Source: Thermincola carboxydiphila (GTDB lineage Bacteria > Bacillota > Thermincolia > Thermincolales > UBA2595). From it: a DNA stretch of 64,000 bases. The notes below the pieces were generated by a model. It saw only the letters and a list, made by a program, of their open reading frames with translations, had not been told where the DNA came from and ran no database searches. This document shows, in pieces, positions 10,352-46,727 of the stretch (the first letter of the stretch is position 1; every line of letters starts with the position of its first letter). Location of the stretch: NCBI GenBank assembly GCA_016841725.1, contig JAENYP010000003.1, positions 1-64,000 on the forward strand. The letters are read 5' to 3'. Made by a program: the position numbers and the translations under genes.

Positions 10352-10381
10352 TTGACTAGTGGGTCGGGAATTAGGTATAAT
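10352..10381 (+). promoter_or_regulatory. Strong sigma-A-type promoter of the S-layer gene
   Basis: TTGACT (10352-10357), 18-base spacer, TATAAT (10376-10381). This is the best -35/-10 pair in this region and the first after the csaB terminator. It predicts a transcript start near 10388 and a leader of about 327 bases. Confidence 0.75.
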
Positions 10382-10387
10382 TAATTC

Positions 10388-15759: not shown

Positions 15760-15918
15760 CTTGAGTGGTTTTAGTTTCAGGAAAACTTATCTCAAAAAGG
15801 GTAATTTTACTGTGATATAAAATAGCGATTAAGGAAGGAATTTTGGATATGAAGTAGAAAATTAACAAAGTTACCTGTAAATTAGCGGAAAAATACCCCT
15901 TTAGGGGAGGATTTGGCA

Positions 15919-20277: not shown

Positions 20278-21488
20278 TGACTTCCGGTGAGAAAAAATTT
20301 GATGCTATTGTCTGCCTGTCACAGATAGATTGGGATTTTCTATGGCAGCGGACTCAGGAAATAATGAGCCAGTTCGCGGCGATGGGGTATCCGGTGTTGT
20401 TTGTTGAGAATACAGGGGTACGCATTCCGAATATCAAAGATGCACCCCGGGTCTGGCAAAGGTTGAAAAAGATTATTCGGCCGGCCAAGGGAACTAATTT
20501 AACTGAAAGTCATAATAATATTAAGGTATTGAGTCCAATGGCCCTGCCTTTCCCATACTCCCGGTTAGCTTGGAAATTGAACAGTGCACTGATTCGCCGG
20601 GAAATTGATCACTTTAGCAGGAACACGGGAGTTCCAGTAAAAAGAATTTTGCTATGGTCATACATGACGACACCTCTGGCAGTGCATTTGGCTGAAAGTG
20701 TGTCATGGGCAGGTATTGTGGTTGATTTGGTCAGTGACCCCTGTAAGGTTCCGGGCGCTGAGCGCATTGTGCCTTATCACCGGAAGATGCTCCAAAAGGC
20801 AAACGTGATTTTCTGTGCATCGGTTCCTGTTGTGAATTCGACTAAACTGTATATTAATGACAAAAGCCTCGCTAAGCTGCATCTACTTGAGGATGGGTTT
20901 TCAACTAATTTATATAACATGGCTCAAAATCAAGTTGATTTAAAAGTACCGATAAATAATCCTGATAACCCGATTGTGGTTTACATAGGAGGGGTTAACA
21001 ATAAAATATGGTGGGATGCTGTTTCTGCTATGGCAGAGAGACTGCCTGAAGTGAATTTTGTTTTCGTAGGCCCTAAAGAATATGGAGAACTTCCCTGTAA
21101 AGGAGCAGGCCAAAATGTTACCTGGCTGCCGCCGTTTGAAAAGTATTCCCAACTGGGAGCTTTTTTGAAGAAATGTAGTGTCGGGCTTATACCATATATA
21201 TCTACACCTTATGTAAATGAAATGAGGCCTGCAAAAATCAATGAATATATGGTAATGGGGCTGCCTATAGTAGCAACGAATATGCCGGAACTAAAACGGC
21301 TTGGCAGTGAATATGGGCCAGGGATTGTGTATTTGTCAGAGAGTGCCGGGGATTTTGCAATAGCATTGAGAAAGGCGCTAAATGAAGATTGTAAGGAATA
21401 CTGGGAAAGACGCAGAAAGATAACTCGAAGCAAGTCATGGGAAGACGTTTGTAGGAAACTTGAAGAACATTTTCGAGTTAATTTTTGA
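20274..21488 (+). CDS. TuaH-like glycosyltransferase
   Basis: A 404-residue protein that opens FDAIVCLSQIDWDFLWQRTQEIM, then FAAMGYPVLFVENTGVRIPN, the typical start of TuaH-type transferases (teichuronic acid biosynthesis in Bacillus) and related capsule enzymes. The C-terminal half holds VYIGGVNNKIWWDAV, NFVFVGPKEYGELP and VSTPYVNEMRPAKINEYMVMGLPIVATN-like donor-site features, split here across about residues 300-345. It lacks the classical first glutamate of EX7E, as usual for this subfamily. It overlaps the preceding gene by 4 bases and the ABC exporter follows. Confidence 0.75.
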   Translation: MMTSGEKKFDAIVCLSQIDWDFLWQRTQEIMSQFAAMGYPVLFVENTGVRIPNIKDAPRVWQRLKKIIRPAKGTNLTESHNNIKVLSPMALPFPYSRLAWKLNSALIRREIDHFSRNTGVPVKRILLWSYMTTPLAVHLAESVSWAGIVVDLVSDPCKVPGAERIVPYHRKMLQKANVIFCASVPVVNSTKLYINDKSLAKLHLLEDGFSTNLYNMAQNQVDLKVPINNPDNPIVVYIGGVNNKIWWDAVSAMAERLPEVNFVFVGPKEYGELPCKGAGQNVTWLPPFEKYSQLGAFLKKCSVGLIPYISTPYVNEMRPAKINEYMVMGLPIVATNMPELKRLGSEYGPGIVYLSESAGDFAIALRKALNEDCKEYWERRRKITRSKSWEDVCRKLEEHFRVNF

Positions 21489-21508
21489 GAGGAGTAATTT
21501 TCGCGAAA

Positions 21509-22318
21509 ATGAGTTTGCTAAAGCAATTTTTTAATTTTTTCTCAGATACATTAAAAAGTAGAAAACTTATGTTTGAATTAGCAAAAAAGGATTTCCGGGC
21601 AAAGTATCTAGGGTCTTACCTAGGTATACTTTGGGCCTTTGTTCAACCGACAATTACGATACTAATTTTTTGGTTTGTATTTCAGGTAGGATTTAAATCT
21701 GTACCTGTGGATAATTTTCCTTTCATACTGTGGCTTTTATGTGGTATGGTGCCGTGGTTCTTCTTTTCGGAAGCCATAAACAGTGCCACCAATGCAGTAA
21801 TAGAAAATAGTTATTTGGTTAAAAAAGTTGTTTTCAGAGTTAGTATTTTGCCTATTATTAAGATAATCTCGTCGCTGTTTATTCATTTGTTTTTCATTGT
21901 TTTCTTATTTTTCATGTTTATTTTTTACGGTTACAAGCCTAGTATTTATAACTTTCAAGTAATATATTATTTAGCTGCTACGGTTATTTTAGTTTTGGGA
22001 ACTTCATGGTTAACATCATCTTTGGTAGTTTTTTTAAAAGATGTAGGTCAGATAGTTGGAATGTTATTACAATTTGGTTTCTGGATGACCCCAATTTTTT
22101 GGTCCCTAAAAATAGTACCCGAAAGGTATCAAAGTATCTTAAAACTTAACCCAGTATATTACTTAGTTGAGGGATACAGGGATAGCCTTATTTATCACAC
22201 TTGGTTTTGGGAACACAGGTATTTGACATTATATTTCTGGTTTATTGCTATTACCATGTTTATTACTGGAGCTATAGCTTTTAAACGATTGAGACCTCAC
22301 TTCGCAGATGTTTTATAA
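21509..22318 (+). CDS. ABC-2 type polysaccharide export permease (Wzm-like, module 1)
   Basis: Membrane subunit of a polysaccharide ABC exporter. The 269 residues have the TagG/Wzm layout: an amphipathic N-terminus with LMFELAKKDFRAKYLGSYLGILWAFVQP, six hydrophobic segments, and the family motif MTPIFWSLKIVPERYQSILKLNPVYYLVEGYR (split about residues 190-220). It is directly followed by its ATPase. The ATG at 21509 is chosen; an in-frame TTG at 21485 overlaps the previous stop but has no ribosome site. From here the sequence becomes markedly AT-rich compared with the envelope genes upstream. Confidence 0.88.
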   Translation: MSLLKQFFNFFSDTLKSRKLMFELAKKDFRAKYLGSYLGILWAFVQPTITILIFWFVFQVGFKSVPVDNFPFILWLLCGMVPWFFFSEAINSATNAVIENSYLVKKVVFRVSILPIIKIISSLFIHLFFIVFLFFMFIFYGYKPSIYNFQVIYYLAATVILVLGTSWLTSSLVVFLKDVGQIVGMLLQFGFWMTPIFWSLKIVPERYQSILKLNPVYYLVEGYRDSLIYHTWFWEHRYLTLYFWFIAITMFITGAIAFKRLRPHFADVL

Positions 22319-22327
22319 GGAGAAATT

Positions 22328-23599
22328 ATGGATAAAGATATAGATATAAAAGTAGAGAATGTATCGAAATTATATAAGCTATATGATAAACCCATAGATA
22401 GATTAAAGGAGGCAATCAACCCGTTTAGGAAGAAATACCATAAAGCCTTTTATGCTTTAAAAGATGTGTCTTTTAATATTAGAAAAGGAGAGGCGGTTGG
22501 TATTATAGGACAAAACGGGTCTGGAAAATCAACCTTGCTTCAGATAATAACTGGTGTTCTTTCACATACATCGGGTAATCTTGCTGTGAACGGGAAAATA
22601 TCTGCGCTTCTAGAGCTTGGAACCGGGTTTAATCCGGAATTGACAGGCATAGAAAACATTTATTTTTATGGAGCTATTATGGGAGTCAACAAAGGGGAGA
22701 TGGATAAGCGTATAGACGAAATAATTTCATTTGCGGATATAGGGGAATTTGTTCATCAACCAGTAAAAGTCTACTCTAGTGGTATGTTTGTTAAGTTGGC
22801 TTTTTCCGTAGCAATTAATGTTCAACCTGATATTCTAATAGTTGACGAAGCTCTAGCTGTTGGAGATATAAGGTTTCAACAGAAATGCTATAGAAAAATA
22901 AAGGAAATTAAGACTGACAAAACAATACTGTTTGTATCCCATGATTTAGGGGCAGTCACGAATTTTTGCGACAGAGTTATTTGGCTTAATGATGGTGAAA
23001 TAATCGAGGATGACACTCCGGCTAAGGTTATAAAGAATTATTACACTTATATGGTTTATAATTCCGAAAATGACATTATTGACTCTGAAATGGCCATAGA
23101 TGAAAACCACAGTTTGATGGATATTGACCCTCTGCCGGAGGGAGTAGCAAGCTTTGGAGAAGGGGCCGCAAAAATAATCGGTGCTAGTCTATTCAAGCAT
23201 AAACTTCAAAGTAAAATAAAAGTTCTTGAAGGTGGGGAAAAGGTTGACTTGGTAGCAAGAATTAAATTAAATGATTATATAGATAGTCCAATTATCGGAT
23301 TTACTATGAAAAACAAGATTGGTTTTACGATTTTATCAACTAATACGGCTGTTCTTAGACGAAATATCGAACCTCTACAAAAGGGAGATACTCTAATTGT
23401 TCGTTTTAGCTTTATGTTCCCAAATATAAAGAATGACTACTATATTTTTTCTCTAGCTATTGCCAATGGAACGCTGCACAATCACATTCAACATCATTGG
23501 GTTCACGATGTAATTATTGTAGAAGTTAGAAGAAATGACCAATTCGCTGAGTGTCACGGCTTATGCGTTTTCGATGATATTGATATAGAAGTGAGTTGA
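22328..23599 (+). CDS. Polysaccharide ABC exporter ATPase with C-terminal Wzt domain (module 1)
   Basis: A 423-residue ATPase partner of the permease above. Walker A GIIGQNGSGKST (about 58-69), signature YSSGM (about 148), Walker B ILIVDEALAVGD (about 168-179) and switch VSHD (about 203) are all present. After residue 250 there is an extra 170-residue beta-rich region (KIIGASLFKHKLQSKIKVLEGGEKVDL, split, through FMFPNIKNDYYIFSLAIANGT) that corresponds to the Wzt carbohydrate-binding domain, which in O-antigen systems recognises a modified chain end before export. TAAGGAG precedes the ATG. Methyltransferase genes immediately follow, consistent with recognition of a methyl-capped terminus. Confidence 0.9.
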   Translation: MDKDIDIKVENVSKLYKLYDKPIDRLKEAINPFRKKYHKAFYALKDVSFNIRKGEAVGIIGQNGSGKSTLLQIITGVLSHTSGNLAVNGKISALLELGTGFNPELTGIENIYFYGAIMGVNKGEMDKRIDEIISFADIGEFVHQPVKVYSSGMFVKLAFSVAINVQPDILIVDEALAVGDIRFQQKCYRKIKEIKTDKTILFVSHDLGAVTNFCDRVIWLNDGEIIEDDTPAKVIKNYYTYMVYNSENDIIDSEMAIDENHSLMDIDPLPEGVASFGEGAAKIIGASLFKHKLQSKIKVLEGGEKVDLVARIKLNDYIDSPIIGFTMKNKIGFTILSTNTAVLRRNIEPLQKGDTLIVRFSFMFPNIKNDYYIFSLAIANGTLHNHIQHHWVHDVIIVEVRRNDQFAECHGLCVFDDIDIEVS

Positions 23600-24253: not shown

Positions 24254-27037
24254 ATGAAATATGACTGCGAAATTGATATGACAACAGATAATTCGTTTTC
24301 ACTTATATTACAACGGATCAAGCCAGGTTCCCGAATATTGGAATTTGGTCCGGCGACCGGGTATATGACAAAATATATGAAAGAAAAATTAGGGTGTAAG
24401 ATTTATTGTATAGAAATAGATACTGAAGCTGCAGAGATTGCCAATAAATATTGTGAAAAGATGATTGTAACAGATATAGACTGCTTACAATGGACAGAAG
24501 AATTACCTGAAAATTATTTTGATTACGTAATTTTTGCCGATGTACTGGAACACTTAAAAAATCCTTGGAAAGCACTTAAACGTGCGGCCGATTTTTTAAA
24601 AAAAGGTGGGACTGTAATAACTTCAATTCCCAATATAGGTCATAGTGCAATTATAATGGAACTTCTCCAAGGGAGATTTGATTACCAAAGGTCTGGACTG
24701 CTTGATGACACTCATATCCGATTTTTTACACGTAAAAGTATTTTAAATTTATTGGCAAGAGCAGAACTGTGTCCTGTAAAATGGTTAGCGGTTATTAATC
24801 GACCTGAAGATACTGAGTTCAAACAAAAATACTCCAATTTTCCTGAAACTGTTCAAGATTTTCTTAAAAATGTTGAGGATAATCACGTGTACCAGTATAT
24901 CACGGTGTCCAAGAGGCTAACTGATGTAAATGAAAAGAATTGCTGCATAGATCTCTCTACAAGGAACAATGGCGGCAGCTATTTACAGGTTTTCTGGAGT
25001 ACAAAAGCTAGTGATTTTCTGGAGGCAGATTCAGCAAAGGTTCCTTTACAATACGATGGTGGGATGGTAACTTACGAGGTGCCTTTACCCTCAAAGGTAA
25101 AGGGTTACTTAAGAATAGATCCGGGGAACGTTAATGCTTACGGGGAGATCAAAAATATCAGTATAAAGGCAATAAATTCGGATGCAGCCGGAGTTAAAGG
25201 CGTGATTGCGTATTCGAATTACGAAAATAATTTTATTGGCTTATCTCCAGGTGCTGGGTTGCTTTTCTTACATAGCGGCAAATACAAAAGGTATATTTGT
25301 ATTGGTAACGATCCACAAATGATCTTTTCCCTGCCCGAGGTTGATTATGGGCAACCACTAATTCTGGAAGTAACCATGAGAAATACTGAAAACATGCCTG
25401 TTAATGCTTTGCTTGAAGTTAGTTGTATGCAAAAGGAGCTTTTCAACAAAACTAGGCAATTGGAAAAACAGACAAATGAACTTGACAAAGCAACGCAACA
25501 ACTGGAGCAATTATTGCATGAATTAGATGAAACTAAGCATGAATTAGATGAAACAAATCTTGAGTTACACGAAACTACATTTAAATGGAGCGAAACAACA
25601 ACCAGCTTAAAGGAGAGAGAGTTGCAGGTGGTAGACCAGCAACAGCGACTGCAATCGCTAAATGATGAATTTTTGTCAGTGACGGTGAGCTTACAAGAAA
25701 GTCATGCGCAATTGTCGAGTGTTCTTCACTCGCATTCATGGAGAGTAACTGCACCAGTTCGTTGGGTGGCTGATAATCTTAAACTATTGATTTCCAAGGT
25801 TGTTTCTGAAAAGTTTAATTATAATTTTAGGCTTATTAAAACTAAATTAAAGTACATTAACGAAGTAAGCACCATACCTGTTTCGAACGGACGTGTTAAA
25901 AAGTGGCAGCTAAAGATTTCTAAAACAAAATGGCTTCACCAAGTATTTTGGTGGTTGCGGGCTAAAACGATGACTGCAAATCCGGTACTCTATGATGTGA
26001 GGGTAAAAAAACCGATTAATGTTACACGACCCAAAATCATTCATGCAATTCCGAATACCTTCGTCGGTGGCTCCACACAACTAATAATTGATTTAATAGA
26101 ATATTTAGGTCACAAGTACGATATGGAAATTATAACCTATGCTCTTCCGCCCATCGGTAAACATAAAGGACTTGTTATCCACGACTTGAGTGGAATTCAA
26201 TCTGGAGAAGAAGCGGCAGAGTTCCTGAAAAGCAAGAAGGCTGACCTTGTTCATATTCATTATTGGGGAGAAGGAGATACCCCTTGGTATCAAAAAATCT
26301 TCGAAGCTACAGAGACATATAGCTGCAAATTAGTTGAAAACATAAACACTCCTATTGAGGCTTATATTAACCCCCGGGTGAATCATTATGTATATGTAAG
26401 TGAATACGCTCAAAGGATGTTTGGCAAATGGCCTGAGAATTCTTCCGTCATTTACCCCGGGATAGATTTTACCCATTTTACCCCAAGCAATTCCGAAAAT
26501 AGACCGGACGCTGTAGGTATGGTATATAGACTTGAAGGGGACAAGCTCCGGGAAGACGCTATCCAGGTATTTATAGAATTAGCTAAAAGGCGGCCACAAA
26601 CTTTAATTTATATTGTAGGTTCAGGAACCTTTTTCAATAAGTATCTCGAACAGGTGTATCAGGCAAATGTCCGTAATAATTTCGTTTTCACCGGCTATGT
26701 GCCTTATGCCCAACTGCCGCAGATTTACGACAAATTTTCGGTATTTGTTGCTCCTGTTTGGAAAGAAAGCTTTGGTCAGGTTTCTCCTTTCGCAATGAAC
26801 AAGGAAATTGTAGTAGCTGGATACGATATCGGTGCTCTTTCCGAGATACTCAATGGAACAGACACTCTTGCCAGCAATATTGATGAGCTTGTAGATATAA
26901 TCATCAATTTACTCGATAACCCTGAGATATTAGAAAGAAAGGGAAAAGAAATGCGGCAACGGGCACAAGAAAATTTCTGTGTAAAAGTAATGGTTTCCAA
27001 ATATGAAGAGATATATGAAACATTATTATCACAATAA
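24254..27037 (+). CDS. Methyltransferase - coiled-coil - glycosyltransferase fusion (possible chain-length ruler)
   Basis: A 927-residue multidomain protein. Residues 1-225: class I methyltransferase (RILEFGPATGYMTKYM, DYVIFADVLEHLKNPW, GGTVITSIPNIGH). About 230-390: beta-rich domain with GYLRIDPGNVNAYGEIKNIS. About 394-492: coiled coil with clear heptads (HELDETK, HELDETN, LELHETT). About 495-590: basic linker. About 592-927: GT4 domain (HAIPNTFVGGSTQLIIDLI, VGMVYRLEGDKLRED, FVAPVWKESFGQVSPFAM), in which the second glutamate of EX7E is Phe. The order recalls WsaE of S-layer glycan loci and the coiled-coil ruler principle of WbdD in E. coli O9a. Adding a terminal methyl while the coil measures length is an inference. 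Confidence 0.82.
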   Translation: MKYDCEIDMTTDNSFSLILQRIKPGSRILEFGPATGYMTKYMKEKLGCKIYCIEIDTEAAEIANKYCEKMIVTDIDCLQWTEELPENYFDYVIFADVLEHLKNPWKALKRAADFLKKGGTVITSIPNIGHSAIIMELLQGRFDYQRSGLLDDTHIRFFTRKSILNLLARAELCPVKWLAVINRPEDTEFKQKYSNFPETVQDFLKNVEDNHVYQYITVSKRLTDVNEKNCCIDLSTRNNGGSYLQVFWSTKASDFLEADSAKVPLQYDGGMVTYEVPLPSKVKGYLRIDPGNVNAYGEIKNISIKAINSDAAGVKGVIAYSNYENNFIGLSPGAGLLFLHSGKYKRYICIGNDPQMIFSLPEVDYGQPLILEVTMRNTENMPVNALLEVSCMQKELFNKTRQLEKQTNELDKATQQLEQLLHELDETKHELDETNLELHETTFKWSETTTSLKERELQVVDQQQRLQSLNDEFLSVTVSLQESHAQLSSVLHSHSWRVTAPVRWVADNLKLLISKVVSEKFNYNFRLIKTKLKYINEVSTIPVSNGRVKKWQLKISKTKWLHQVFWWLRAKTMTANPVLYDVRVKKPINVTRPKIIHAIPNTFVGGSTQLIIDLIEYLGHKYDMEIITYALPPIGKHKGLVIHDLSGIQSGEEAAEFLKSKKADLVHIHYWGEGDTPWYQKIFEATETYSCKLVENINTPIEAYINPRVNHYVYVSEYAQRMFGKWPENSSVIYPGIDFTHFTPSNSENRPDAVGMVYRLEGDKLREDAIQVFIELAKRRPQTLIYIVGSGTFFNKYLEQVYQANVRNNFVFTGYVPYAQLPQIYDKFSVFVAPVWKESFGQVSPFAMNKEIVVAGYDIGALSEILNGTDTLASNIDELVDIIINLLDNPEILERKGKEMRQRAQENFCVKVMVSKYEEIYETLLSQ

Positions 27038-27070: not shown

Positions 27071-28441
27071 ATGAGAATATTACTTACCGTTCATTGTTTT
27101 TATCCCAAGCATATTTTTGGTACTGAAACGTACACCCTTGAAATTGCCCGAACTTTACAGGCTTTAGGTCATAATGTGTGTGTTTTGACTACAAACTCAC
27201 ATACTGAACCGGCAGATGGCCGAGATTATATTCGTTATGAGTTTGACTCTGTTCCGGTAATAAGTTTGGACACTAGCAATTTTCCCAATACCAGCTTTAA
27301 AGATACCTATGTTAAAGATGGTATTAATAACGTAATAAAACAAATTGTAGCAGAGTTTCAGCCCGATATTGTTCACAGTTTGCATGTTATAAATTTAACC
27401 GTAACTTTTCTTAAGGATATTCAAGACATGGGAATTCCTGCTATGGCTACCTTAACAGATTTTTTTGGTGTTTGCTTGAATTGCAAATTACAAACGTTTA
27501 ACGGGAAATTTTGCACAGGACCTGATTGGCTTGCCTCTAATTGTTTGGAATGCTATTTTGCAGAAACAAGAAAATCGGATACAATTAAAAATAAGTCCGT
27601 GTTTTTGAGAAAATTATGTTCCCCTGTTCCTTTAGCTTTTGTGGCAAAAATTTTAAAATCAGGGCAAATACCCCTCATACAGGAAGTGAATTACATTACA
27701 GAACGAAAAGCAACCATTCAGAGACACTACGAAGTGTTCCAAAGGTTAATTGCCCCTACAAGCTTCCTAAGAACGGCTTACGTTAATAACGGATACCCCG
27801 GGGACAAGGTTCAAAAGATTACTTTTGGTCTAAATCGCCAGCCATTAGAGGGATACACGCATCCAAGAAACAGTTTCAAAAAAAAGCTAACGTTTGGATA
27901 TATTGGACAATTGTACTGGCACAAAGGTGTCGACTTATTGATGGAAGCCTTTAACAAGTTAAATGACCCTGAGCTTAAATTAATGATTTATGGTGATAAA
28001 AATCAAGATATTAATTACACGGAAAAACTAAACTTATTAAAGGGAGATAATCCTAATATTCAATTGCTTGGTACGTTCCCAAGGGAGAGACTGGGTGAGT
28101 TTTTACATAATATTGATGTTTTAGTTATACCTTCACTATGGTATGAGAATGCCCCTTTAGTGTTACTGAATGCTCTGGCTACCCGAACACCGGTCATAGC
28201 ATCTGATGTTGACGGAATGAACGAATTTATTAAACATGATTTCAATGGAATGCTTTTTGATCCCGGAGACATGCAAGATTTATATAGAAAGTTAAAGGAA
28301 TGTATTGATTACCCCGAAGATTTAATCCGTATATCCCACAATGCCAATTACGAAAAATCTATTAAAGATAATGTGGAGGAATTGTTGCAGATTTATAAAG
28401 AATGCATTTCAGAGAGACATCGGGTATCGAAAAGAACGTAA
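27071..28441 (+). CDS. GT4-type glycosyltransferase with Cys-rich insertion (paralogue A)
   Basis: A 456-residue GT-B protein: MRILLTVHCFYPKHIFGTETYTLEIARTL start, DIVHSLHVINLTVTFL, then a cysteine cluster (CLNCKLQTFNGKFCTGPDW ... NCLECYF, about 135-160), TFGYIGQLYWHKGVDLLMEA and PSLWYENAPLVLLNALATRTPVIASDVDG. The expected second glutamate of EX7E is Asn (ENAPLVLLN). It is a paralogue of the gene at 33792, and the two bracket the gene set at 28.5-33.7 kb. An AGGAGAAAT ribosome site precedes the ATG. Activity may be altered or the family may tolerate the change. Confidence 0.8.
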   Translation: MRILLTVHCFYPKHIFGTETYTLEIARTLQALGHNVCVLTTNSHTEPADGRDYIRYEFDSVPVISLDTSNFPNTSFKDTYVKDGINNVIKQIVAEFQPDIVHSLHVINLTVTFLKDIQDMGIPAMATLTDFFGVCLNCKLQTFNGKFCTGPDWLASNCLECYFAETRKSDTIKNKSVFLRKLCSPVPLAFVAKILKSGQIPLIQEVNYITERKATIQRHYEVFQRLIAPTSFLRTAYVNNGYPGDKVQKITFGLNRQPLEGYTHPRNSFKKKLTFGYIGQLYWHKGVDLLMEAFNKLNDPELKLMIYGDKNQDINYTEKLNLLKGDNPNIQLLGTFPRERLGEFLHNIDVLVIPSLWYENAPLVLLNALATRTPVIASDVDGMNEFIKHDFNGMLFDPGDMQDLYRKLKECIDYPEDLIRISHNANYEKSIKDNVEELLQIYKECISERHRVSKRT

Positions 28442-28510
28442 TATTTAAACAAATCAAAACAACCAATATGTGGGTTATTGAGCAAAAATTTATGAAAAAG
28501 GAGATTGAAT

Positions 28511-28747
28511 GTGGAAAAGAAATTGAATTCAAAAACGGGAATGGTTTTGGAAGCATTGGTTTGGATTGGTCTTATTCAGGTGATGGTTCCGATAAGAGCT
28601 TATGCTTATCTTGATCCTGGAACTGGCAGCTATATGCTGCAAGTTTTAATGGGTCTTTTGGTTGGCTTATTGTTTACAATCAAAACCTTTTGGAAAAACA
28701 TCAAGTCTTCGACTGCTAAACTTTTAAAAAGAAGGGGAAGAAATTGA
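28511..28747 (+). CDS. Small LDPGTGS membrane protein
   Basis: A 78-residue protein with a hydrophobic N-terminal segment (about 12-29), the motif AYLDPGTGSYMLQVLMG immediately after, a second membrane helix (VLMGLLVGLLFTIKTFW) and a short Lys/Arg-rich tail. The AYLDPGTGS motif marks a family of tiny membrane proteins that I recognise from polysaccharide and envelope loci of varied bacteria, with no established function. GTG at 28511 is preferred over TTG at 28505 because GGAG at 28500-28503 is then correctly spaced. Its stop overlaps the TTG start of the next gene, so the pair is coupled. Confidence 0.75.
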   Translation: MEKKLNSKTGMVLEALVWIGLIQVMVPIRAYAYLDPGTGSYMLQVLMGLLVGLLFTIKTFWKNIKSSTAKLLKRRGRN

Positions 28748-30123
28748 AAAATATTGAACACGAGCCAAGCTCGTTTCGGGACCCGAGTGGATTTATATTT
28801 TATTTGGATGGTCAAGTTTATCGCCAAATAAACAAGGTACATCAAGAACATTATGATTACTGTATTGATAGCGGCTTATACAAAGTTTTGACTGAAACCG
28901 GTCTTCTAATTTCCCATAGAGAAGTAGACATGCCTGGAATACAGAACAAAGCAGTTTACAAATTTATTCAACCGGACCTTATTCCATTCATTTCCTATCC
29001 GTATGAATGGTGCTTTAGCCAATTGAAACAGGCCGCTCTTGCCACACTAAAGATTATAAAAATTTCCCTTGAATATGGCATGATATTGAGCGATGCGAGC
29101 GCTTATAATATTCAATTTTATAAAGGTAAGCCGGTTTTCATTGATACACTTTCATTAAAAAAGTATATCAAGGGAGAGCCTTGGACTGCATATAAACAGT
29201 TTTGCCAGCATTTTCTTGCTCCGTTAGCCTTAATGAGTTATACGGATATCGGACTTAATCAATTGCTTAAAGTATATATAGACGGGATTCCATTGGATTT
29301 GGCTAGTGCTCTTCTGCCCTTTAAAACAAAAGTAAAACTGGGGTTACTATTGCATATTCATTTCCATGCAAAAAGCCAGAAGCATTACTCGACCAAAGTT
29401 GTAAAGGTCAAGGAACATAAGTTACCTCTCAAATCTTTACTGGGGTTAATAGACAATATCGAATCAACAGTAAACAGTCTAAAGTGGAGTCCCCAAGGAA
29501 CTGAGTGGGCAGATTACTATAGTTTTACTAATTACTCTTCTAATATGATGACGGAAAAAATGCATTATGTTGAGAAATTTATTAATCAGATTAATCCCAA
29601 AAGTGTTTGGGACTTAGGTGCCAACATTGGGATTTTTAGCAGGATTGCCAGCGACCAAGGAATACAAACCGTTTCTTTCGATATTGACCCGGCAGCTGTT
29701 GAAAAGAATTATCTTGAAAGTATCGAAAAAGGGGAGACTCAAATTATTCCTTTGTTGCTTGATTTAACAAATCCCAGCCCGGCGATAGGTTGGGAAAACA
29801 ATGAGCGAGCATCACTAATGGATCGGGGACCAGTTGACCTGGTATTAGCTTTAGCTCTAATTCATCATCTTGCTATCTCAAACAATGTTCCATTAGATAA
29901 GGTTGCCAACTTCTTTAGCAGGATATGTAACTTCCTAATAATTGAATTTGTGTCCAAAGAAGATACTCAGGTAAAAAAGCTGCTGGCGACAAGAGAAGAC
30001 ATCTTTTTGAAATACATACAACATGAGTTCGAAATAGAATTTAAAAATTACTTTGAAATCCTGGACATCATTTCAATTGATGATTCCCAGCGCACATTGT
30101 ATTTGATGCAAAGAAAGGGTTAG
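28744..30123 (+). CDS. NoeA-like methyltransferase with kinase-like N-terminal half
   Basis: A 459-residue protein. The N-terminal half carries a degenerate kinase-type catalytic loop, LSDASAYNIQFYKGKPVFIDTLS (about 115-137), where D...N and the later D match the HxDxxxxN...D layout, plus WTAYKQFCQHFLAPLALMSY. The C-terminal half is a class I methyltransferase: SVWDLGANIGIFSRIASDQG (about 285-304), VSFDIDPAAVEKN and LVLALALIHHLAISNNVPL. This combination is seen in NoeA-like proteins. A methyltransferase joined to a kinase-like domain is also the layout of the O9a chain terminator WbdD, though order and residues differ. TTG start overlaps the LDPGTGS gene. Confidence 0.75.
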   Translation: MKNIEHEPSSFRDPSGFIFYLDGQVYRQINKVHQEHYDYCIDSGLYKVLTETGLLISHREVDMPGIQNKAVYKFIQPDLIPFISYPYEWCFSQLKQAALATLKIIKISLEYGMILSDASAYNIQFYKGKPVFIDTLSLKKYIKGEPWTAYKQFCQHFLAPLALMSYTDIGLNQLLKVYIDGIPLDLASALLPFKTKVKLGLLLHIHFHAKSQKHYSTKVVKVKEHKLPLKSLLGLIDNIESTVNSLKWSPQGTEWADYYSFTNYSSNMMTEKMHYVEKFINQINPKSVWDLGANIGIFSRIASDQGIQTVSFDIDPAAVEKNYLESIEKGETQIIPLLLDLTNPSPAIGWENNERASLMDRGPVDLVLALALIHHLAISNNVPLDKVANFFSRICNFLIIEFVSKEDTQVKKLLATREDIFLKYIQHEFEIEFKNYFEILDIISIDDSQRTLYLMQRKG

Positions 30124-30125
30124 TA

Positions 30126-31568
30126 ATGAAGAATATTTTAAGATTTACTCCTGTTTTATTTGCCGTTTACCCGGTTGTATTTCTATATGCTCATAATGTT
30201 CAAGAAGTGAATATTGGCCAGATTTATTTTCCTCTAGGGGTATCGTTATTAAGCACATTAATAATATGGGGTCTTTTAAGTCTGGTAATAAAAGACAGAT
30301 TAAAAGCGGGATTGATTACGATTGTTTTTCTCATATTCTTTTTTTCTTATGGGTCTTTATTTGACAGTCTGTTAAGCCTAAAGTTGTTTAGTGTAAAGCA
30401 TCGGCATCTTTTTCCAATTGTATTGTTAATTGCAGGATATCTTTCATATTTTATCTTGATAATAAAAAGAAAAAACTTAGTAGATTGTATTTTTCGGATT
30501 TTGAGTGTAATTATTTCTGTGTTGATTGTTGTAAACATTGTTGTTTTAGTTCCAATTGAAGTAAAAAAGGTAAATTTTTCAAAGCCTACAACGGCGGATA
30601 GACAAGTAAAATCAATTGCTCCGGCAAATTCACCTGACATCTATTTCATAATTCTAGATGAATACGCGAATTCAAAAACTATCAAAGATATTTGGAATTA
30701 CAATAATAGTTGGTTTACAAATTCGTTAAAAGACAAGGGGTTTTATGTAGCTGAAAATAGTAAGACAAGATATAATCAGACATACCGATCTATTTCGAGT
30801 TATCTGAACATGCAGTATGTTGACGAGAATGCTAGTACTCTAACGTGTTATCAATTAATAAGTAATAACAAAGCAGCAAAATACTTAAAAGAGAAAGGTT
30901 ATAAGTATGTATATATAGGGAATTGGTACGATGCAAATAGGTATCAATTAAATGCGGATTACCAGTTTAATTATTTTTTAGATTCAGATAAAACTTATAT
31001 TGATGAATTTGCTCTCATGCTATTCAAGGGAACTATGGTTAGGCCCTTCACATACCTATTTGAGACGACAAGTAGTGGAGATAGTCTAGAGGGTAATGCA
31101 ATTGTTTATAGTTTTGAAAGGCTTAAACAGGTGTCTACTATGAATGTTGGTGGCCCTAAATTCGTTTTTGCCCATATTCTAAGCCCTCATGCTCCATTTG
31201 TATTTGATAAGGATGGAAACAAAATAGACCAAGCTGATTGGTACAATTGGAAAGAAAAAAAATACTATCTCGGCCAATACATCTATATCACTAAACAGGT
31301 GAACAATTTGGTTAGTGAGTTGTTAAAGGATAAAACAAATCCGCCAATTATAATAATTCAATCAGATCATGGACCTAGGCCAAATTACGGACCAAAACCA
31401 AATCAAAGAATGGTTATTCCAGAGAACTATATGTACGAAATTTTTTATTCGTACTATTTGCCAGGATTGGATAACAAAATTATTAGTCAAAACATGTCAC
31501 CAATTTATACGTTTAGGTTGATATTTGACAAGTACTTCAATGAAAAACTAGACTTACCGGAGGAGTGA
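30126..31568 (+). CDS. Membrane-anchored sulfatase/phosphatase-fold protein
   Basis: A 480-residue protein with about four N-terminal membrane segments (residues 5-150) and an extracytoplasmic alkaline-phosphatase-superfamily domain: DIYFIILDEYANSKT (metal Asp near 177), NQTYRSISSYLNM with the likely nucleophilic Thr near 217, FAHILSPHAPFVFD, and IIQSDHGPR (metal Asp-His near 412). The layout resembles lipoteichoic acid synthases and phosphoethanolamine transferases, but the motif spacing is of a separate uncharacterised branch. It may move a phospho- or sulfo-group onto the surface glycan. It starts 2 bases after the upstream stop and is followed 1 base later by the GWAF-repeat gene. Confidence 0.75.
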   Translation: MKNILRFTPVLFAVYPVVFLYAHNVQEVNIGQIYFPLGVSLLSTLIIWGLLSLVIKDRLKAGLITIVFLIFFFSYGSLFDSLLSLKLFSVKHRHLFPIVLLIAGYLSYFILIIKRKNLVDCIFRILSVIISVLIVVNIVVLVPIEVKKVNFSKPTTADRQVKSIAPANSPDIYFIILDEYANSKTIKDIWNYNNSWFTNSLKDKGFYVAENSKTRYNQTYRSISSYLNMQYVDENASTLTCYQLISNNKAAKYLKEKGYKYVYIGNWYDANRYQLNADYQFNYFLDSDKTYIDEFALMLFKGTMVRPFTYLFETTSSGDSLEGNAIVYSFERLKQVSTMNVGGPKFVFAHILSPHAPFVFDKDGNKIDQADWYNWKEKKYYLGQYIYITKQVNNLVSELLKDKTNPPIIIIQSDHGPRPNYGPKPNQRMVIPENYMYEIFYSYYLPGLDNKIISQNMSPIYTFRLIFDKYFNEKLDLPEE

Positions 31569-31569
31569 G

Positions 31570-32508
31570 ATGGCTAAAGAAAAGATAATTACTAGAAAAA
31601 ACTTTTTAATTCATATGTCAATCTTAATAAGCCTTTTAGTTTACTTAGGTTTTTCGGATTATATTTTCAATGACTTATTACTTATTAAAGGTGAAAGTAC
31701 CTTGCAGAAATCTGCATTACCTAAAATAACAAGTAAAATCTCTTGCGGCGTGGATGAAGTACGGCTTACGCAAATGAAATGGAAAAATTTGATTCAAATA
31801 AAAGGTTGGGCCTTTATCAATGGGGTCAGTGCGAAATCCAACAAAGTTTATGTGGTATTGAGTTCAAAAGACAAAAACTATATTTTAAGTACTTCTCAAG
31901 AGCTTAGAGGCGACATACCAGTAACGTTTAATATAAACAACCTGGATCTAGAATATTGCGGTTTTAGGGTACTTATTTCAGACGAGAAAATTAAAAATGG
32001 AGTTTACCAAATTGGTTTTTATATAAAGAATGGCACAAAGGAGTTTTATAGTTACAGCGATGAATATTTGGTGAAAAATCGTGATAGCGTTTCAAAGGGA
32101 TTTATTTCTGAACAACAAATAGTAAATTTGCCTAATGAATCCACGGATGTAATTTCTTCAATAGAAATGGTCAAATTAGAGCCTGAGAAAAAACAATTGA
32201 TAATTTCGGGATGGGCTTTTGTAAATGACCAGGATTCTAGTGATAGAAATGTTTTTGTTGTACTGAAATCGGAAAATAAGACGTATGTTTTTGACTCGGT
32301 TTTCGCAAAAAGGCCGGATGTTACAAAGCACTTTGAAAAATTAAACCTTGACTTAGATAATAGTGGCTTTAAGACGTTAATATTCCAAAATGCTGTCCCT
32401 GATGGAAAATATAACATTGGAATTTATATAGATAATGCTAAGGGTTCATTTTTTCAGACTACAGATTATTATGTCACTAAGGATGGAGATGAATTGTTAA
32501 GGGAATAA
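31570..32508 (+). CDS. Membrane-anchored protein with two GWAF repeats, unknown function
   Basis: A 312-residue protein with one N-terminal membrane helix (about 13-33) and two copies of a roughly 110-residue domain outside. Repeat 1 (about 58-170) has IQIKGWAFINGVSAKSNKVYVVLSS, RGDIPVTFN and CGFRVLISDEKIKNGVYQIGFYI; repeat 2 (about 193-308) has LIISGWAFVNDQDSSDRNVFVVLKS, KRPDVTKHF and SGFKTLIFQNAVPDGKYNIGIYI (quoted here in parts). The domain looks like a beta-sandwich and has no catalytic motif. I recognise similar repeats in membrane proteins from other Firmicute surface loci but know no function. Directly behind lie frameshifted remains of a further repeat. Confidence 0.7.
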   Translation: MAKEKIITRKNFLIHMSILISLLVYLGFSDYIFNDLLLIKGESTLQKSALPKITSKISCGVDEVRLTQMKWKNLIQIKGWAFINGVSAKSNKVYVVLSSKDKNYILSTSQELRGDIPVTFNINNLDLEYCGFRVLISDEKIKNGVYQIGFYIKNGTKEFYSYSDEYLVKNRDSVSKGFISEQQIVNLPNESTDVISSIEMVKLEPEKKQLIISGWAFVNDQDSSDRNVFVVLKSENKTYVFDSVFAKRPDVTKHFEKLNLDLDNSGFKTLIFQNAVPDGKYNIGIYIDNAKGSFFQTTDYYVTKDGDELLRE

Positions 32509-32566
32509 CCGCTATTGTGTATCAATGAATTTACCCCAGCGAAATAATTGGAAATAAAATACCCTT

Positions 32567-32827
32567 GGAGTTTTTCAAGAAGCAAACAATATCAATATTG
32601 AGGGATGGGCGTTCGTTGAGGGAGATATTTCTACTAAACAATATATTATATTGCTGAATTCAAAAGAGAAGACCTATGTTTTTGAGGCAATTACGGTTAG
32701 AAGACCTGATGTTACTAGTGCTTATGGTAAGGCGAGTGACTTAGACTACTCAGGCTTCAGAGCAGTTATACAAAAAATACACTTAAAAAGGGTAAATACG
32801 ACACTGAATTATTATCAAGATGCATAA
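32567..32827 (+). pseudogene. Decayed third GWAF domain
   Basis: Read from 32567 the + strand gives INIEGWAFVEGDISTKQYI, then KTYVFEAITVRRPDVTSAY and DLDYSGFRAVIQK, clearly the same domain as in the intact gene upstream. After that the homologous end (TLKKGKYDTELL) continues only in another frame, and there is no start codon or ribosome site at the front. Further matching scraps (KNTDYLIGYI) appear near 32850 in yet another frame. This is the broken end of a longer repeat protein or a lost neighbour gene, and it fills most of the gap from 32509 to 32902. Confidence 0.7.
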
Positions 32828-33791: not shown

Positions 33792-35144
33792 TTGAGACTA
33801 GTATTGACAGTTCACCAATTTCTGCCGGATTATTCTGCTGGAACTGAAATTCTAACATTCGAGACAGCCAAAGAACTTCAAAAAAGAGGACACGATGTAG
33901 TAGTATGGACCGGAAATCCTACCAAAGCCAACAGTTTCATTGATCAATATATATACCAAGGCATTCCAGTTCGGAGATACAACCTAAATGTTACTGATAC
34001 TGCGGCGTTAAGCAACAAGGTGGAAGTAGGATATAAAAACCGTCAATTTGCACAAACATTCGGCGATTTTTTAAAAGAGTATCAACCGGATATAATTCAC
34101 TTTTTTCACCTTAACGGGTTATCTGTTGACATAATACACTCTGGTTGGGAACTTGGACTTCCAATGGTTTATACTGCTACAGACTTCTGGATGATTTGTC
34201 CCACTGCCCAGCTAAGAATGCCTGATAATGCTGATTGTCTAGGTCCCGACCGCCACTCGGTGAATTGCTTACGCCATATTGTTGCTAATTCTCAACCCCA
34301 AGCGGTTAATAATATATTGAACTGTTTACCTAATTGGGTTTTAACATTCATATGCCGAGGATCGAGAAATAATTGGTGGTCGGAAAGAAAATACTCCCCA
34401 ATGATAGCTTCTCTTGTTAGCCGAAAAGATTATTTACGTAATGCTTTGAATCAAGTGGACCGAGTTTTAGTGCCAACAAGATTTATGAATGATATTTTAG
34501 TAAGTAATGGTATACGCCAGAACCGTATTCTTATACAATCTTTTGGGATTAATTTGGGGCAAAAAAAAGCATTAGCTAAAACCCTTAATATGAAACTGCG
34601 AATTGGCTTCATTGGCACTCTAAGCGAACATAAGGGAGTGCATGTTTTATTAGATGCTATTAATTACTTGGATAAATGTACTCCAATAGAGGTGAAAATT
34701 TACGGAGAGGGAAAAGAGTTCCCCGAGTATTTTGCGCGATTAAAAGGGATGGCAGAGAAAGACCCCCGTGTGAAATTCTGTGGTACCTTTCCGAATTCTG
34801 AGATAGGCCGAATATTTTCCGGTCTGGACGTTTTGGTTGTTCCTTCATTATGGTACGAAAATACTCCCTTGGTTATTTACTCTGCCCAGGCTGAAAGAAT
34901 ACCGGTTATTGCCAGCAATCTTCCGGGAATAGCTGACGTGATAGAACATGAAAGAAATGGTTTGTTTTTTGACAAAGGGGATGCCCGCGGTCTTGCCGCA
35001 CAGATTAAACGACTAATTAATGACAGGGCGCTGTTAACCCAGTTTTCGAAGCAAGCTAAGCAACCAAAGACTTTATGCACTTATGTTGATGAATTGGAAG
35101 GTATATACAAAAACATTTTATCTGAGAGGGGAAAATCAAAATGA
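33792..35144 (+). CDS. GT4-type glycosyltransferase with Cys-rich insertion (paralogue B)
   Basis: A 450-residue GT-B protein, paralogous to the gene at 27071: MRLVLTVHQFLPDYSAGTEILTFETAKEL start, DIIHFFHLNGLSVDII, cysteine segment (CPTAQLRMPDNADCLGPDR ... NCLRH), IGFIGTLSEHKGVHVLLDA and PSLWYENTPLVIYSAQAERIPVIAS. The second glutamate of EX7E is Ser (ENTPLVIYS). The start is TTG at 33792 with TAGGAGAA upstream. It overlaps the epimerase gene by 4 bases. Both paralogues carry a substitution at the same catalytic position, a point raised separately. Confidence 0.8.
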   Translation: MRLVLTVHQFLPDYSAGTEILTFETAKELQKRGHDVVVWTGNPTKANSFIDQYIYQGIPVRRYNLNVTDTAALSNKVEVGYKNRQFAQTFGDFLKEYQPDIIHFFHLNGLSVDIIHSGWELGLPMVYTATDFWMICPTAQLRMPDNADCLGPDRHSVNCLRHIVANSQPQAVNNILNCLPNWVLTFICRGSRNNWWSERKYSPMIASLVSRKDYLRNALNQVDRVLVPTRFMNDILVSNGIRQNRILIQSFGINLGQKKALAKTLNMKLRIGFIGTLSEHKGVHVLLDAINYLDKCTPIEVKIYGEGKEFPEYFARLKGMAEKDPRVKFCGTFPNSEIGRIFSGLDVLVVPSLWYENTPLVIYSAQAERIPVIASNLPGIADVIEHERNGLFFDKGDARGLAAQIKRLINDRALLTQFSKQAKQPKTLCTYVDELEGIYKNILSERGKSK

Positions 35145-36088
35145 AGTGTCTGGTGTTAGGGGGAGGGGGGTTTATAGGTTCCCATTTGTGTGAAGGACTA
35201 ATACATAATGGTCACCACGTGCGTGTTTTTGAAAAAGAAGGTCGTAGCAAAGTCAATTTAAGTCATTTGGAGAAAGAGGTTGATTGGTTTGAAGGAGATT
35301 TCCTTAACCCGGAACATTTAAAAGATGCAGTTGACAACATGGAAGTAATATTTCATTTAATTAGCACGACGTTGCCAAAGAGTTCTAACGAAAGCCCTGT
35401 TTATGACATTTCTTCTAATGTTATTTCAACTCTTCATCTATTGGATGCTGCAAAAGCCGCGGATGTTCGTAAAATAGTATTTTTCTCTTCCGGAGGTACA
35501 GTATATGGCGTACCTCAGATCATTCCAATTCCTGAAGACCATCCTACTAATCCTACTTGCTCTTATGGTATTCATAAGTTGACAATTGAGAAGTATTTGG
35601 CATTAAATTATTATTTACATGGTTTGGATTATACGATTATGCGCGTTTCCAATCCGTACGGTGAACGCCAGAGGCCAACAGGTAGTCAGGGTGCTATAGC
35701 TGTATTCATATACAAAGCTTTAAAAGGAGATAAAATCGAAATCTGGGGTGATGGTTCTGCTGTTCGCGATTTTATACATGTTTCCGATGTTGTTACAGCA
35801 GCATTGAAGTTAACTCAAAATAATGTTTCGGAAAAAATTATCAATATAGGCAGCGGGGTTGGTCTTTCGTTAAATGAAATAATCGGTGAAATAGAAAAAG
35901 TAGTTGGGTATAAGCTAAACGTTTATTACTGTAAATCTCGGGGTTTTGACGTTCCCTCTAATATTTTGGATATCTCTCGTGCAAATGGAGTGCTTGGATG
36001 GAGTCCTTGTGTAGACTTTTTCGAAGGTATTATTAAAGCTGTCGATTATTATAAATCAAATTTCATTCAAATCTCTCATCAATTTTAA
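35141..36088 (+). CDS. NAD-dependent sugar epimerase/dehydratase
   Basis: A 315-residue short-chain dehydrogenase of extended type. It has the NAD motif GGGGFIGSHL (about 7-16), DxxxxV-type segment WFEGDFLNPE, the catalytic Ser region FFSSGGTVYG (about 110-119) and SYGIHK with Tyr and Lys (about 141-146), then RVSNPYGERQRPTG and the sugar-binding WGDGSAVRDFIHV. It is closest to UDP-glucose 4-epimerase-like enzymes; the product sugar cannot be fixed. It is the last gene of the AT-rich block and an IS remnant begins about 7 bases after its stop. Confidence 0.82.
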   Translation: MKCLVLGGGGFIGSHLCEGLIHNGHHVRVFEKEGRSKVNLSHLEKEVDWFEGDFLNPEHLKDAVDNMEVIFHLISTTLPKSSNESPVYDISSNVISTLHLLDAAKAADVRKIVFFSSGGTVYGVPQIIPIPEDHPTNPTCSYGIHKLTIEKYLALNYYLHGLDYTIMRVSNPYGERQRPTGSQGAIAVFIYKALKGDKIEIWGDGSAVRDFIHVSDVVTAALKLTQNNVSEKIINIGSGVGLSLNEIIGEIEKVVGYKLNVYYCKSRGFDVPSNILDISRANGVLGWSPCVDFFEGIIKAVDYYKSNFIQISHQF

Positions 36089-36094
36089 GAAAAT

Positions 36095-36417
36095 TGACCT
36101 TGCCCAGATAAAATGGACACTCCAGAGTTAGGTTTTCTCTTGATTTCACAGAATATCACTATTTTCATAGGGTGGCATCTATTCAATGTTTGAGCCGTAC
36201 CGTTTTTAATAGTGCTAAGAAAGGTTTCGGCGCAGGCATTATCCCAGCAATTTCCTTTAAGGCTCATATTGCATACTTGAATGATGTATTGATCTCTTAG
36301 GCGGTCGATGCTTAATAACTGCATTGTCCAATACCCTACATAAAGCCCTGTTCTCATGTGTTTTGCTACGGCCCACCCAACTACTTCAAAATCTTGATTG
36401 AGCAGGTTAACGGGAGA
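36095..36417 (-). mobile_element. Remnant of an IS3-family insertion sequence (orfB end)
   Basis: On the - strand an open stretch reads FEVVGWAVAKHMRTGL, then after a shortened middle MSLKGNCWDNACAETFLSTIKN, both hallmarks of IS3-type transposase OrfB. About 20 residues that should lie between them are missing (including the HSDRG region), and the usual YNxxRxHxxLGY end is lost through a frameshift. The sequence TGACCTTGCCCAG at 36095-36107, followed by AAATGGACAC, looks like an IS terminal repeat. No second end was found. The element is inactive. The rest of the gap to 36686 holds no confident gene. Confidence 0.7.
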
Positions 36418-43517: not shown

Positions 43518-45641
43518 ATGGCTGCAAAGAAGAAACTCATCACTGCTAACAACAATAGACAATTCGTGACTGATGATAATCTAAAGATTATATTCTACCT
43601 GGTCCTGCCCTTGCTGCTGCTGCCCCCGCGGTTCAGGGGACTTTTTTTCGATTACGAGGCAGACATTGCCCACATATATGCTGCTTTGATCCTTGGAGCA
43701 TATGTAATAGTTCGCAGGGATTATATCCGACTGCCGCGGAACCTAATGGATTACGCCTGGATTGGACTTGTAGCTGCATACATAATTTCCAACTTTGTTG
43801 CCTTTAACCAGAGGGCTGCACTGGAAAGCGCCCTGAGAGTATTTAATTTCTTTGTTATTTACTGGGTCCTTGCCTATGCGGTGACCAATATCAAGGAAAT
43901 AAAAATCGCCCTGTCGGTGCTTTTTGCTGCCGGTGTTGGGGTGGCCCTTGCCGGACTGGGTACGGCCTATGGAACTTTTTGGTTTAATGGGGCTTATGAC
44001 AAAGGCCTGATACTTTCCACACTTCAGTATCACAATGCGGCTGCCATTTTTCTGATAGGATGCGGGATAATCGGATTTTACCTGGCAGCCACACTTAATA
44101 AGGTATGGATGCGGGTCCTGGCAGGCGGCCTGAATTATATTATAATTGCCACTGCATATGGCGCCGGGTCTAGAGGGGCTATGCTGGTGGCTCCGATAGG
44201 GCTCGTACTTCTGGTAATTGGGATGCCAAAGAAGTACCGTTTTAGGACTTTCCTGGGATTTGTTGCAGTATTAATTCCGTTTGTGATCACTGCAAAGCAG
44301 GTATTGAGTTTCGAAACCCACAGTGAGGCCTATTACTGGTTATGGTTGTTGGGTGGATTTATTATCGGATGCTGTTGCCAGTACCTTATAGAGAAGTTTT
44401 CAAACTTTTCTGCTGCCACACGAAAGAAAATGATTGCTGTTACGGGCATAGGAATAACCGTGGTTTCGGTAGGGTTGATACTGTTTATGGGGCATAAAAT
44501 TATGCCTGCTTCCATTGCCAACAGGCTTTCCAATTTCAGCCTGCAGGATCTGAGCGTTATTGAGAGGTTTTATTTTTACCGTGATGCCTTTGAAGTTGTC
44601 AAGGACTATCCGGTCTTTGGTGTCGGGGGCGGTGGCTGGAATTCAGCATATACCGGTTACCAGTCTCTGCTTTACTATACTACCGAAGTACACAGTCATC
44701 CGCTGCAGGTTTGGGTGGAGACAGGGACAGTGGGTTTTCTGTTTTATGTATTAATCTGGATTGGCCTTATGATAACATTATACAGGATTATGAGAAAGGT
44801 GGAGTCACCCGAATACCGTGCCGCTGCATGGGTTTCAGGGGTGGCAGCTTTGACGGTGTCCATGCACAGTGTAATTGATTTCTCGCTCTCTCTTGGGGCT
44901 GTAGCTATCCTGATGTGGGCTCTGGTTGGTCTGACAAGGGGAGTTGAGCGGTTGGGAACCAGAGAGGGAATTAACGGAAACACAATAGCCGGGCCAACAG
45001 TCAGAAAAGCTGTTGGAATTATATTGGCAGGGATTTTCCTGGTAATATCCTGCAGCTTGTCCATTGCAGCGTACACGGAAAGACAGGCAGGCGCTGCTTA
45101 TAATTCGGGAAATGTGCAGCAGGCCATAGACCTGTTTGAAAAAGCTAAAAAATATGACCCGCTGAACTATAATTACCCCATGTACCTGGCGCAAATATAT
45201 AATTATCAGGCCTACCAGCAGAAGAACATCTTGCTGACCAGGACGGCGGTGGAGAATGCCAAAAAGGCAGCAGAGCTTAACGAAAAGGCCGCCCAGCCAT
45301 TATGGGCGCTGGCTGAGACCTACCTGGGCGCCCAGATGCCTATTGAAGCTGCGGCGGCTGCGGAAGAGGCTGTTCAGGCAGTGCCGTGGCGGCAGGATGC
45401 TTACAATAACCTGGCACGGGTTTATTTATCTTCCGGAAATTACCTGATTCAGATGGGGCAGCAGGGTAATGCCCGGACAGTTCTGGAAAAGGTCATGGCA
45501 ATACCGGAAATGATTGACAGGCAGGTAGCCAAGCTTGGTCCGGATGAGCGCAAGGTCTGGAGACACGGCCCGGTTCCCAGTGTGGATAAGAATATCACTG
45601 AGGCCATGGAACAGGCGAAACAGATGATAAGCGGAATATAG
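43518..45641 (+). CDS. O-antigen ligase/polymerase-like membrane protein with TPR tail (copy 2)
   Basis: A 707-residue paralogue of the protein at 13616. It has about 12 membrane segments (residues 22-520) with the loop signature ERFYFYRDAFEVVKDYPVFGVGGGGW and HSHPLQVWVETGTVGFLFYVLIW in the same positions, and a C-terminal TPR region (about 530-680) including AIDLFEKAKKYDPLNYNYPMYLA, AAELNEKAAQPLWALAETYL and AVQAVPWRQDAYNNLARVYL. The extreme C-terminus (DERKVWRHGP...VDKNITEA) matches copy 1 (GRKLWRPGA...IEKNISEA), so the two arose by duplication. CAGGAGGA precedes the ATG. It may ligate the second glycan, perhaps to the Fn3-SLH protein; polymerase activity is the alternative. Confidence 0.8.
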   Translation: MAAKKKLITANNNRQFVTDDNLKIIFYLVLPLLLLPPRFRGLFFDYEADIAHIYAALILGAYVIVRRDYIRLPRNLMDYAWIGLVAAYIISNFVAFNQRAALESALRVFNFFVIYWVLAYAVTNIKEIKIALSVLFAAGVGVALAGLGTAYGTFWFNGAYDKGLILSTLQYHNAAAIFLIGCGIIGFYLAATLNKVWMRVLAGGLNYIIIATAYGAGSRGAMLVAPIGLVLLVIGMPKKYRFRTFLGFVAVLIPFVITAKQVLSFETHSEAYYWLWLLGGFIIGCCCQYLIEKFSNFSAATRKKMIAVTGIGITVVSVGLILFMGHKIMPASIANRLSNFSLQDLSVIERFYFYRDAFEVVKDYPVFGVGGGGWNSAYTGYQSLLYYTTEVHSHPLQVWVETGTVGFLFYVLIWIGLMITLYRIMRKVESPEYRAAAWVSGVAALTVSMHSVIDFSLSLGAVAILMWALVGLTRGVERLGTREGINGNTIAGPTVRKAVGIILAGIFLVISCSLSIAAYTERQAGAAYNSGNVQQAIDLFEKAKKYDPLNYNYPMYLAQIYNYQAYQQKNILLTRTAVENAKKAAELNEKAAQPLWALAETYLGAQMPIEAAAAAEEAVQAVPWRQDAYNNLARVYLSSGNYLIQMGQQGNARTVLEKVMAIPEMIDRQVAKLGPDERKVWRHGPVPSVDKNITEAMEQAKQMISGI

Positions 45642-46701: not shown

Positions 46702-46727
46702 GGTTATAAAAAGTGGGGAAAATCACT

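Follow-up and report, generated by a model that had tools for sequence, protein, structure and literature searches.

A DPGTGS membrane peptide accompanies a NoeA-type kinase-methyltransferase and an alkaline phosphatase-superfamily enzyme in a gene cassette widely shared among bacteria

The genes noeA and noeB have reportedly been known as host-range genes since 1995. The modification of the Nod factor has been proposed as the role of these nodulation genes (PMC9758233, main text; PMC9048898). A neighborhood in which a kinase-methyltransferase gene lies beside an alkaline phosphatase (AP)-fold gene was described in 2022 and called a likely functional unit; in Legionella anisa, it corresponds to the conserved neighborhood Lani_1193-1194-1195 (65% and 38% of 816; PMC9758233, main text). 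WbdD of Escherichia coli O9a also combines a kinase and a class I methyltransferase in one polypeptide. It phosphorylates and then methylates a terminal mannose, and its methyltransferase (residues 1 to 210) is followed by the kinase (residues 211 to 459) and a coiled coil (PMC3482155). The transferases LtaS, EptA, and OpgB share N-terminal transmembrane (TM) helices, an extracytoplasmic AP domain, and a conserved Thr in the nucleophile region with the AP-superfamily enzyme (AP enzyme) described below.

We analyzed a 64,000-nucleotide stretch of Thermincola carboxydiphila DNA (referred to here as the window), whose contig (C11) belongs to a 3.88-Mb genome. By its gene content, the window appears to be a polysaccharide locus; it has two pairs of ABC exporter genes and many glycosyltransferase and methyltransferase genes. 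An earlier interpretation made from the letters alone (the sequence-only reading) had proposed that four tightly packed genes in this locus form one unit ending at 32827. All four genes were confirmed on the + strand (28511 to 32508), and the tight packing held (intergenic spacing of -4, +2, and +1 nt). The two flanking glycosyltransferases are paralogous, as had been claimed (31% identity over 464 alignment columns; E 2e-74). The features are as follows.

27071 to 28441, + strand: GT4 glycosyltransferase, upstream flank (context; outside the conserved unit)
28511 to 28747, + strand: DPGTGS peptide, 78 aa (GTG start; Shine-Dalgarno GGAG at 28500 to 28503)
28744 to 30123, + strand: NoeA-type kinase-methyltransferase, 459 aa (TTG start; 4-nt overlap, TTGA, with the peptide stop)
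30126 to 31568, + strand: membrane AP-superfamily (sulfatase/LtaS/NoeB-like) enzyme, 480 aa (PF00884, E 3e-7)
31570 to 32508, + strand: GWAF protein, 312 aa (N-terminal TM helix and two Ig-like repeats)
32525 to 32827, + strand: decayed third GWAF repeat (out of frame, with stops; outside the functional protein)
33792 to 35144, + strand: GT4 glycosyltransferase, downstream flank (context; paralogue of 27071 to 28441)

Decayed, with internal stops and in a different frame from the GWAF gene, the third repeat (E 2.7e-18) lies outside the intact unit, whose end was corrected from 32827 to 32508. The flanking glycosyltransferases were rejected as unit members because they are not conserved together with the cassette. 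An Rfam scan of the region gave no RNA family match, a terminator scan of the region gave matches at chance level, and a PHROGs search detected no phage families.

Judged by its sequence, the 459-aa protein is of the full-length NoeA type: its N-terminal half is kinase-like, and a class I methyltransferase follows toward the C terminus. NoeA of Sinorhizobium meliloti pSymA aligned with it by tblastn over 98% coverage (~35% identity; E 8e-68) and all catalytic residues are kept, so the NoeA-like identity given earlier was right. The protein has no TM segment. R27, D117, N122, and D134, as well as D290, G292, and D313 of the S-adenosylmethionine site, were invariant across 26 aligned sequences including NoeA. 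The kinase equivalences (R for K72, then D166, N171, and D184) follow the analysis of Lani_1194 in the main text of PMC9758233. The N-terminal half is thus a putative kinase, an assignment that rests on motif conservation, a weak match to RIO1 (E 0.069), and the published family analysis. The AlphaFold2 model (pLDDT, 87.1; pTM, 0.88) had WbdD (4azs; E 1.6e-8; ~220 columns) as its best PDB fold match; the remaining listed matches were methyltransferases, and the aligned length of WbdD fits the methyltransferase half.

WbdD is itself a kinase-methyltransferase acting on terminal mannose (PMC3482155), and its place as best fold match, together with the ABC exporter pairs of the window, brings up an alternative in which the kinase-methyltransferase caps the nonreducing end of a polysaccharide with methyl-phosphate, setting the chain length for ABC export, and in which this cap is trimmed or remodeled by the AP enzyme. 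We consider this unlikely, given that the fold match is limited to ~220 columns, that the domain order is reversed, and that unrelated genes surround most of the homologous cassettes. Moreover, we know of no DPGTG peptide or AP enzyme partners of WbdD. Membership of the WbdD family was rejected on the opposite domain order and on the lack of residues left for a coiled coil.

The AP enzyme, encoded directly after the kinase-methyltransferase, has several N-terminal TM segments followed by an extracytoplasmic PF00884 domain, which supports the membrane enzyme of AP fold that had been claimed. D178, T219, H355, and D414-H415 are conserved in an alignment that includes NoeB and were assigned, by analogy, as putative metal and nucleophile residues; certain members have DEG in place of DHG. 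T219 lies in an NYxxTxxS context, and the formylglycine-type Cys/Ser-x-Pro-x-Arg motif is absent. A formylglycine-type sulfatase was rejected as a candidate, since the Thr is conserved and no CxPxR is present. Although the architecture resembles that of LtaS, EptA, and OpgB, sequence similarity to these transferases is very weak (hhalign, E 0.04 to 0.06) and confined to co-linear motifs (OpgB, E 0.036; EptA, E 0.056). EptA can be aligned at the SDHG motif and at the His upstream of it, and this motif-level alignment suggests an enzyme of the transferase type.

The gene ahead of the kinase-methyltransferase encodes YLDPGTGSYMLQ, and the tiny membrane protein noted previously was confirmed (78 aa, two hydrophobic segments). 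It consists of a signal-peptide-like helix, AYA followed by YLDPGTGS, a single TM helix, and a basic C-terminal tail. It thereby belongs to the DPGTG peptide family, which we define here by Y-[LI]-D-P-G-[TS]-G-S-x3-Q, a TM helix, and a basic tail. Among 111 distinct peptide sequences, the Tyr and Asp are invariant (111/111), the second Gly occurs in 110, and the Gln occurs in 109. A signal-peptidase-like site immediately precedes the Tyr in 81 of the 111, with the hydrophobic helix and basic tail following; on the basis of this layout, YLDPGTGS is predicted to lie outside and the tail inside. Certain family members lack a signal peptide, their first residues being MYLDPGTGS or close to it. When the literature was searched for the DPGTGS motif, the single hit was unrelated, and no paper in the searched library prints the motif in such a context.

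The same peptide gene is part of the rhizobial nodulation operon, which on S. meliloti pSymA runs in the order nodL, peptide (5715 to 5963 of L091), noeA, and noeB; the small open reading frame (ORF) between nodL and noeA begins MPIIMSVVGFLILSIVPAHAYLDPGTGS. S. medicae has the same nodL-peptide-noeA-noeB order, with the peptide annotated as a hypothetical protein. The operon thus carries the peptide, kinase-methyltransferase, and AP-fold genes in the order seen in the window, with catalytic residues kept. It differs in its ~35% identity, in having nodL upstream where the window has a glycosyltransferase, in that no GWAF gene was seen, and in its host-range role on Medicago. The sequence-only reading had stated that no system of this composition was described. 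This does not hold for the NoeA/AP pairing, which has been in print since 2022 and is the NoeA-NoeB arrangement (PMC9758233, main text). It may still hold for the peptide, which appears to be a new part of an otherwise partly described system: the main text of PMC9758233 describes no DPGTGS peptide and mentions no GWAF protein, although Lani_1193, present in 65% of the neighborhoods, may be such a peptide. No cassette member was recognizable in the text of a paper on Actinoplanes exopolysaccharide (PMC13390465).

A gene-neighborhood survey for DPGTGS proteins, which had been suggested as a check, showed that the kinase-methyltransferase and AP partners recur. From one contig scan, we obtained 80 loci from many phyla; these were chosen by similarity to the window kinase-methyltransferase and therefore describe its closer relatives. 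The peptide gene adjoined the kinase-methyltransferase gene in 72 of the 73 cross-phylum loci with room for it, usually with a slight overlap, and the genome of the lone exception also has a peptide match. At least 55 of the 73 loci had an AP gene directly next on the same strand; this count is a minimum, as AP-type genes of great length (e.g., that for the 825-aa PF00884 protein of L133) were partly missed. The peptide was present in all 36 kinase-methyltransferase genomes tested. In three genomes of ~2 Mb (G578, G569, and G706), the cassette AP gene was the sole PF00884 match.

Phylum-level samples offer a less biased test than the 80 loci, with the center genome included in each. Among 300 genomes of the window's own phylum, a full-length kinase-methyltransferase was found in four (G000, G009, G098, and G106), and a free-standing peptide was found in exactly the same four. 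The chance of four random genomes falling among the five peptide-bearing ones is ~1.5e-8 if phylogeny is ignored. The kinase-methyltransferase also accompanied most peptide places in three further phylum samples. Over 52 peptide places, mostly from the four phylum samples, a kinase-methyltransferase was present at 37 and an AP-superfamily gene was nearby at 40 or more. Sources of homologues include Chloroflexota, candidate phyla, and archaeal metagenome-assembled genomes (MAGs). Most of the loci are from MAGs, and single taxon labels (above all archaeal and candidate-phylum ones) may be wrong; the pattern is independent of any one of them.

The cassette is a genuine unit that is widely shared among bacteria, far beyond chance. 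Since the genes recur together across genomes and phyla, the outcome that would have counted against a single unit, their failure to recur, was not observed, and the claim of one unit is borne out. The competing view, that the genes are independent and are merely neighbors within a polysaccharide island, draws on the size of the island, which is rich in glycosyltransferases and methyltransferases, and on the absence of the cassette from the other same-family genomes sampled. We regard it as hardly credible. The order is identical in many phyla, with many cassettes located among unrelated genes and often at a distance from glycan loci; the genes co-occur one-to-one in the own phylum; and fusions exist (see below). 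For the three-gene core, order, co-occurrence, and fusions already refute independence.

The GWAF protein is an optional, lineage-specific member outside the core. Its homologues lie directly 3' of the AP gene in L084 (G009), L025, L040, L019/L133, and L129, and the full four-gene order was found in the window and the first three of these loci; outside the window, it occurs in another family of the same taxonomic order and in two Chloroflexota loci. The four-gene order is therefore real yet lineage specific. The structure prediction proposed for this protein gave one TM helix (residues 9 to 36) and two Ig-like beta-sandwich repeats (pLDDT, 71.6), with fold matches that were generic Ig/FnIII at low TM-score. 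The receptor role that had been put forward is unsupported by this generic Ig/FnIII-type beta-sandwich and was rejected. Neither the GWAF profile nor single-sequence searches matched the PDB, and the protein had no match to Pfam PF17957 (Big_7); by hhalign, it was weakly similar to Big_7 repeats found in a subtilase (E 0.053). Two Pfam matches below cutoff were discarded as chance: PBECR3 (E 0.089) for the protein and Herpes_UL42 (E 0.067) for the decayed repeat.

The peptide is also found with AP-superfamily enzymes where the kinase-methyltransferase is missing. Six loci have such peptide-AP pairs (L127 in G306, L129 in G313, L215, L216, L233, and L234), and the pair of L129 includes the GWAF gene noted above. 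L185, L230, and L232 encode the peptide and an AP-superfamily phosphodiesterase (PF01663) as a single fusion protein. In L130, and similarly in L131, the fusion partner of the peptide is a Glyphos_transf domain (PF04464), and the fusion adjoins a protein that combines YidC and a sulfatase. These two loci resemble the cassette in having a YIDPGTGS membrane element with an adjacent AP-superfamily enzyme, but they carry a CDP-glycerol glycerophosphotransferase-like domain where the cassette has the kinase-methyltransferase.

The fusions bear on whether the peptide could instead be a substrate or carrier, whose exposed Tyr or Ser/Thr is modified or bears a glycan transferred by the AP enzyme, in the manner of a membrane anchor for a surface polymer. 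The invariant Tyr and Asp, the loop predicted to face outward behind a signal-peptidase-like site, and the retention of at least one loop Ser/Thr by each variant checked in the 80-locus set agree with such a role. Even so, it seems improbable: no single Ser/Thr position is invariant among the 111 peptides, and because some enzymes carry the peptide fused at their N terminus, a subunit fits better than a consumed substrate.

Our main reading, to which we give roughly even odds (about 0.5), is a surface-decoration cassette of the NoeA-NoeB type in which the peptide couples a cytosolic enzyme to the AP enzyme. The kinase-methyltransferase would phosphorylate and then methylate a glycan or glycolipid precursor in the cytosol. 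The AP enzyme, judging by its topology and by the conservation of its active site, would transfer or hydrolyze a phospho-group on the exported product outside the membrane. The peptide would be a small single-pass membrane subunit, with the YLDPGTGS loop predicted outside beside the AP enzyme and the basic tail inside beside the cytosolic enzyme; its gene is linked to theirs, and contact with both would couple the two activities. The GWAF protein, linked to the short AP enzyme, may serve as its lineage-specific extracytoplasmic Ig-like partner in binding or as a scaffold. The target would be an exported glycan or lipid-linked precursor that becomes phospho/methyl decorated. A glycan or lipid-linked glycan is favored because of the locus, the resemblance to WbdD, and the Glyphos_transf substitution; the frequent location of the cassette far from glycan loci makes this substrate tentative. 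The phospho/methyl modification of an exported glycan suggested earlier remains the best reading, with its architecture observed and its chemistry and substrate presumed.

A different target, a specific signal molecule rather than a cell-surface glycan, is what has been proposed for NoeA/NoeB and Nod factors (PMC9758233, main text; PMC9048898), and the peptide gene lies within that same nodulation operon. Applied to the cassette as a whole, this is quite improbable in view of the homologues in Chloroflexota, candidate phyla, and archaeal MAGs. To our knowledge, these groups do not make lipochitooligosaccharides, so a more general substrate is likelier.

Returning to the decoration cassette, we tentatively extend it, at somewhat less than even odds, to the peptide as a small subunit used generally by AP-superfamily surface enzymes, which it would connect through the membrane with interchangeable cytosolic glycan-phosphate enzymes (kinase-methyltransferase or Glyphos_transf); in the nodL-noeA-noeB operon, it would be an overlooked fourth gene needed for function. 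NoeA and NoeB are thus placed in a self-contained multiphylum cassette with a tiny membrane peptide as a constant third part, which makes a general substrate likelier than a rhizobial signal. The peptide family, unnamed in the searched library, links AP-fold surface enzymes with cytosolic partners, and the presence of its gene inside a well-known rhizobial nodulation operon makes its function testable.

Several further observations were made. The proteins that join a YidC-like domain (60KD_IMP) to a sulfatase fold lie at 5623 to 8361 in L130 and at 5269 to 8016 in L131. L127 contains tandem pairs of a DPNTGG peptide gene and a long AP-type gene (3049 to 11835) on the strand opposite the kinase-methyltransferase. 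Peptides with AYVGPGLGLG (L188 to L190) were left out of the family on their weak match to the peptide profile; in L189, a sulfotransferase gene (PF13469) comes next, and peptide and enzyme may be paired there in an analogous way.

Within the window, the two Wzm/Wzt-like ABC exporter pairs (21485 to 23599 and 45868 to 47984) are accompanied by two sugar-phosphate transferase genes (15913 to 17286 and 60535 to 61947) and two ligase/TPR-like paralogues (13616 to 15727 and 43518 to 45641), and this island possibly holds two glycan systems. Upstream of the cassette, 24254 to 27037 encodes a methyltransferase-glycosyltransferase fusion. Its homologue in G009 (1824 to 4715 of L084) keeps the N-terminal half, and its C-terminal half resembles another glycosyltransferase type, which suggests a domain exchange. 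Beside nucleotide-sugar genes, an ORF on the - strand (36085 to 36357) contains SLKGNCWDNACAETFLSTIKN and is apparently the remnant of an IS3-type transposase.
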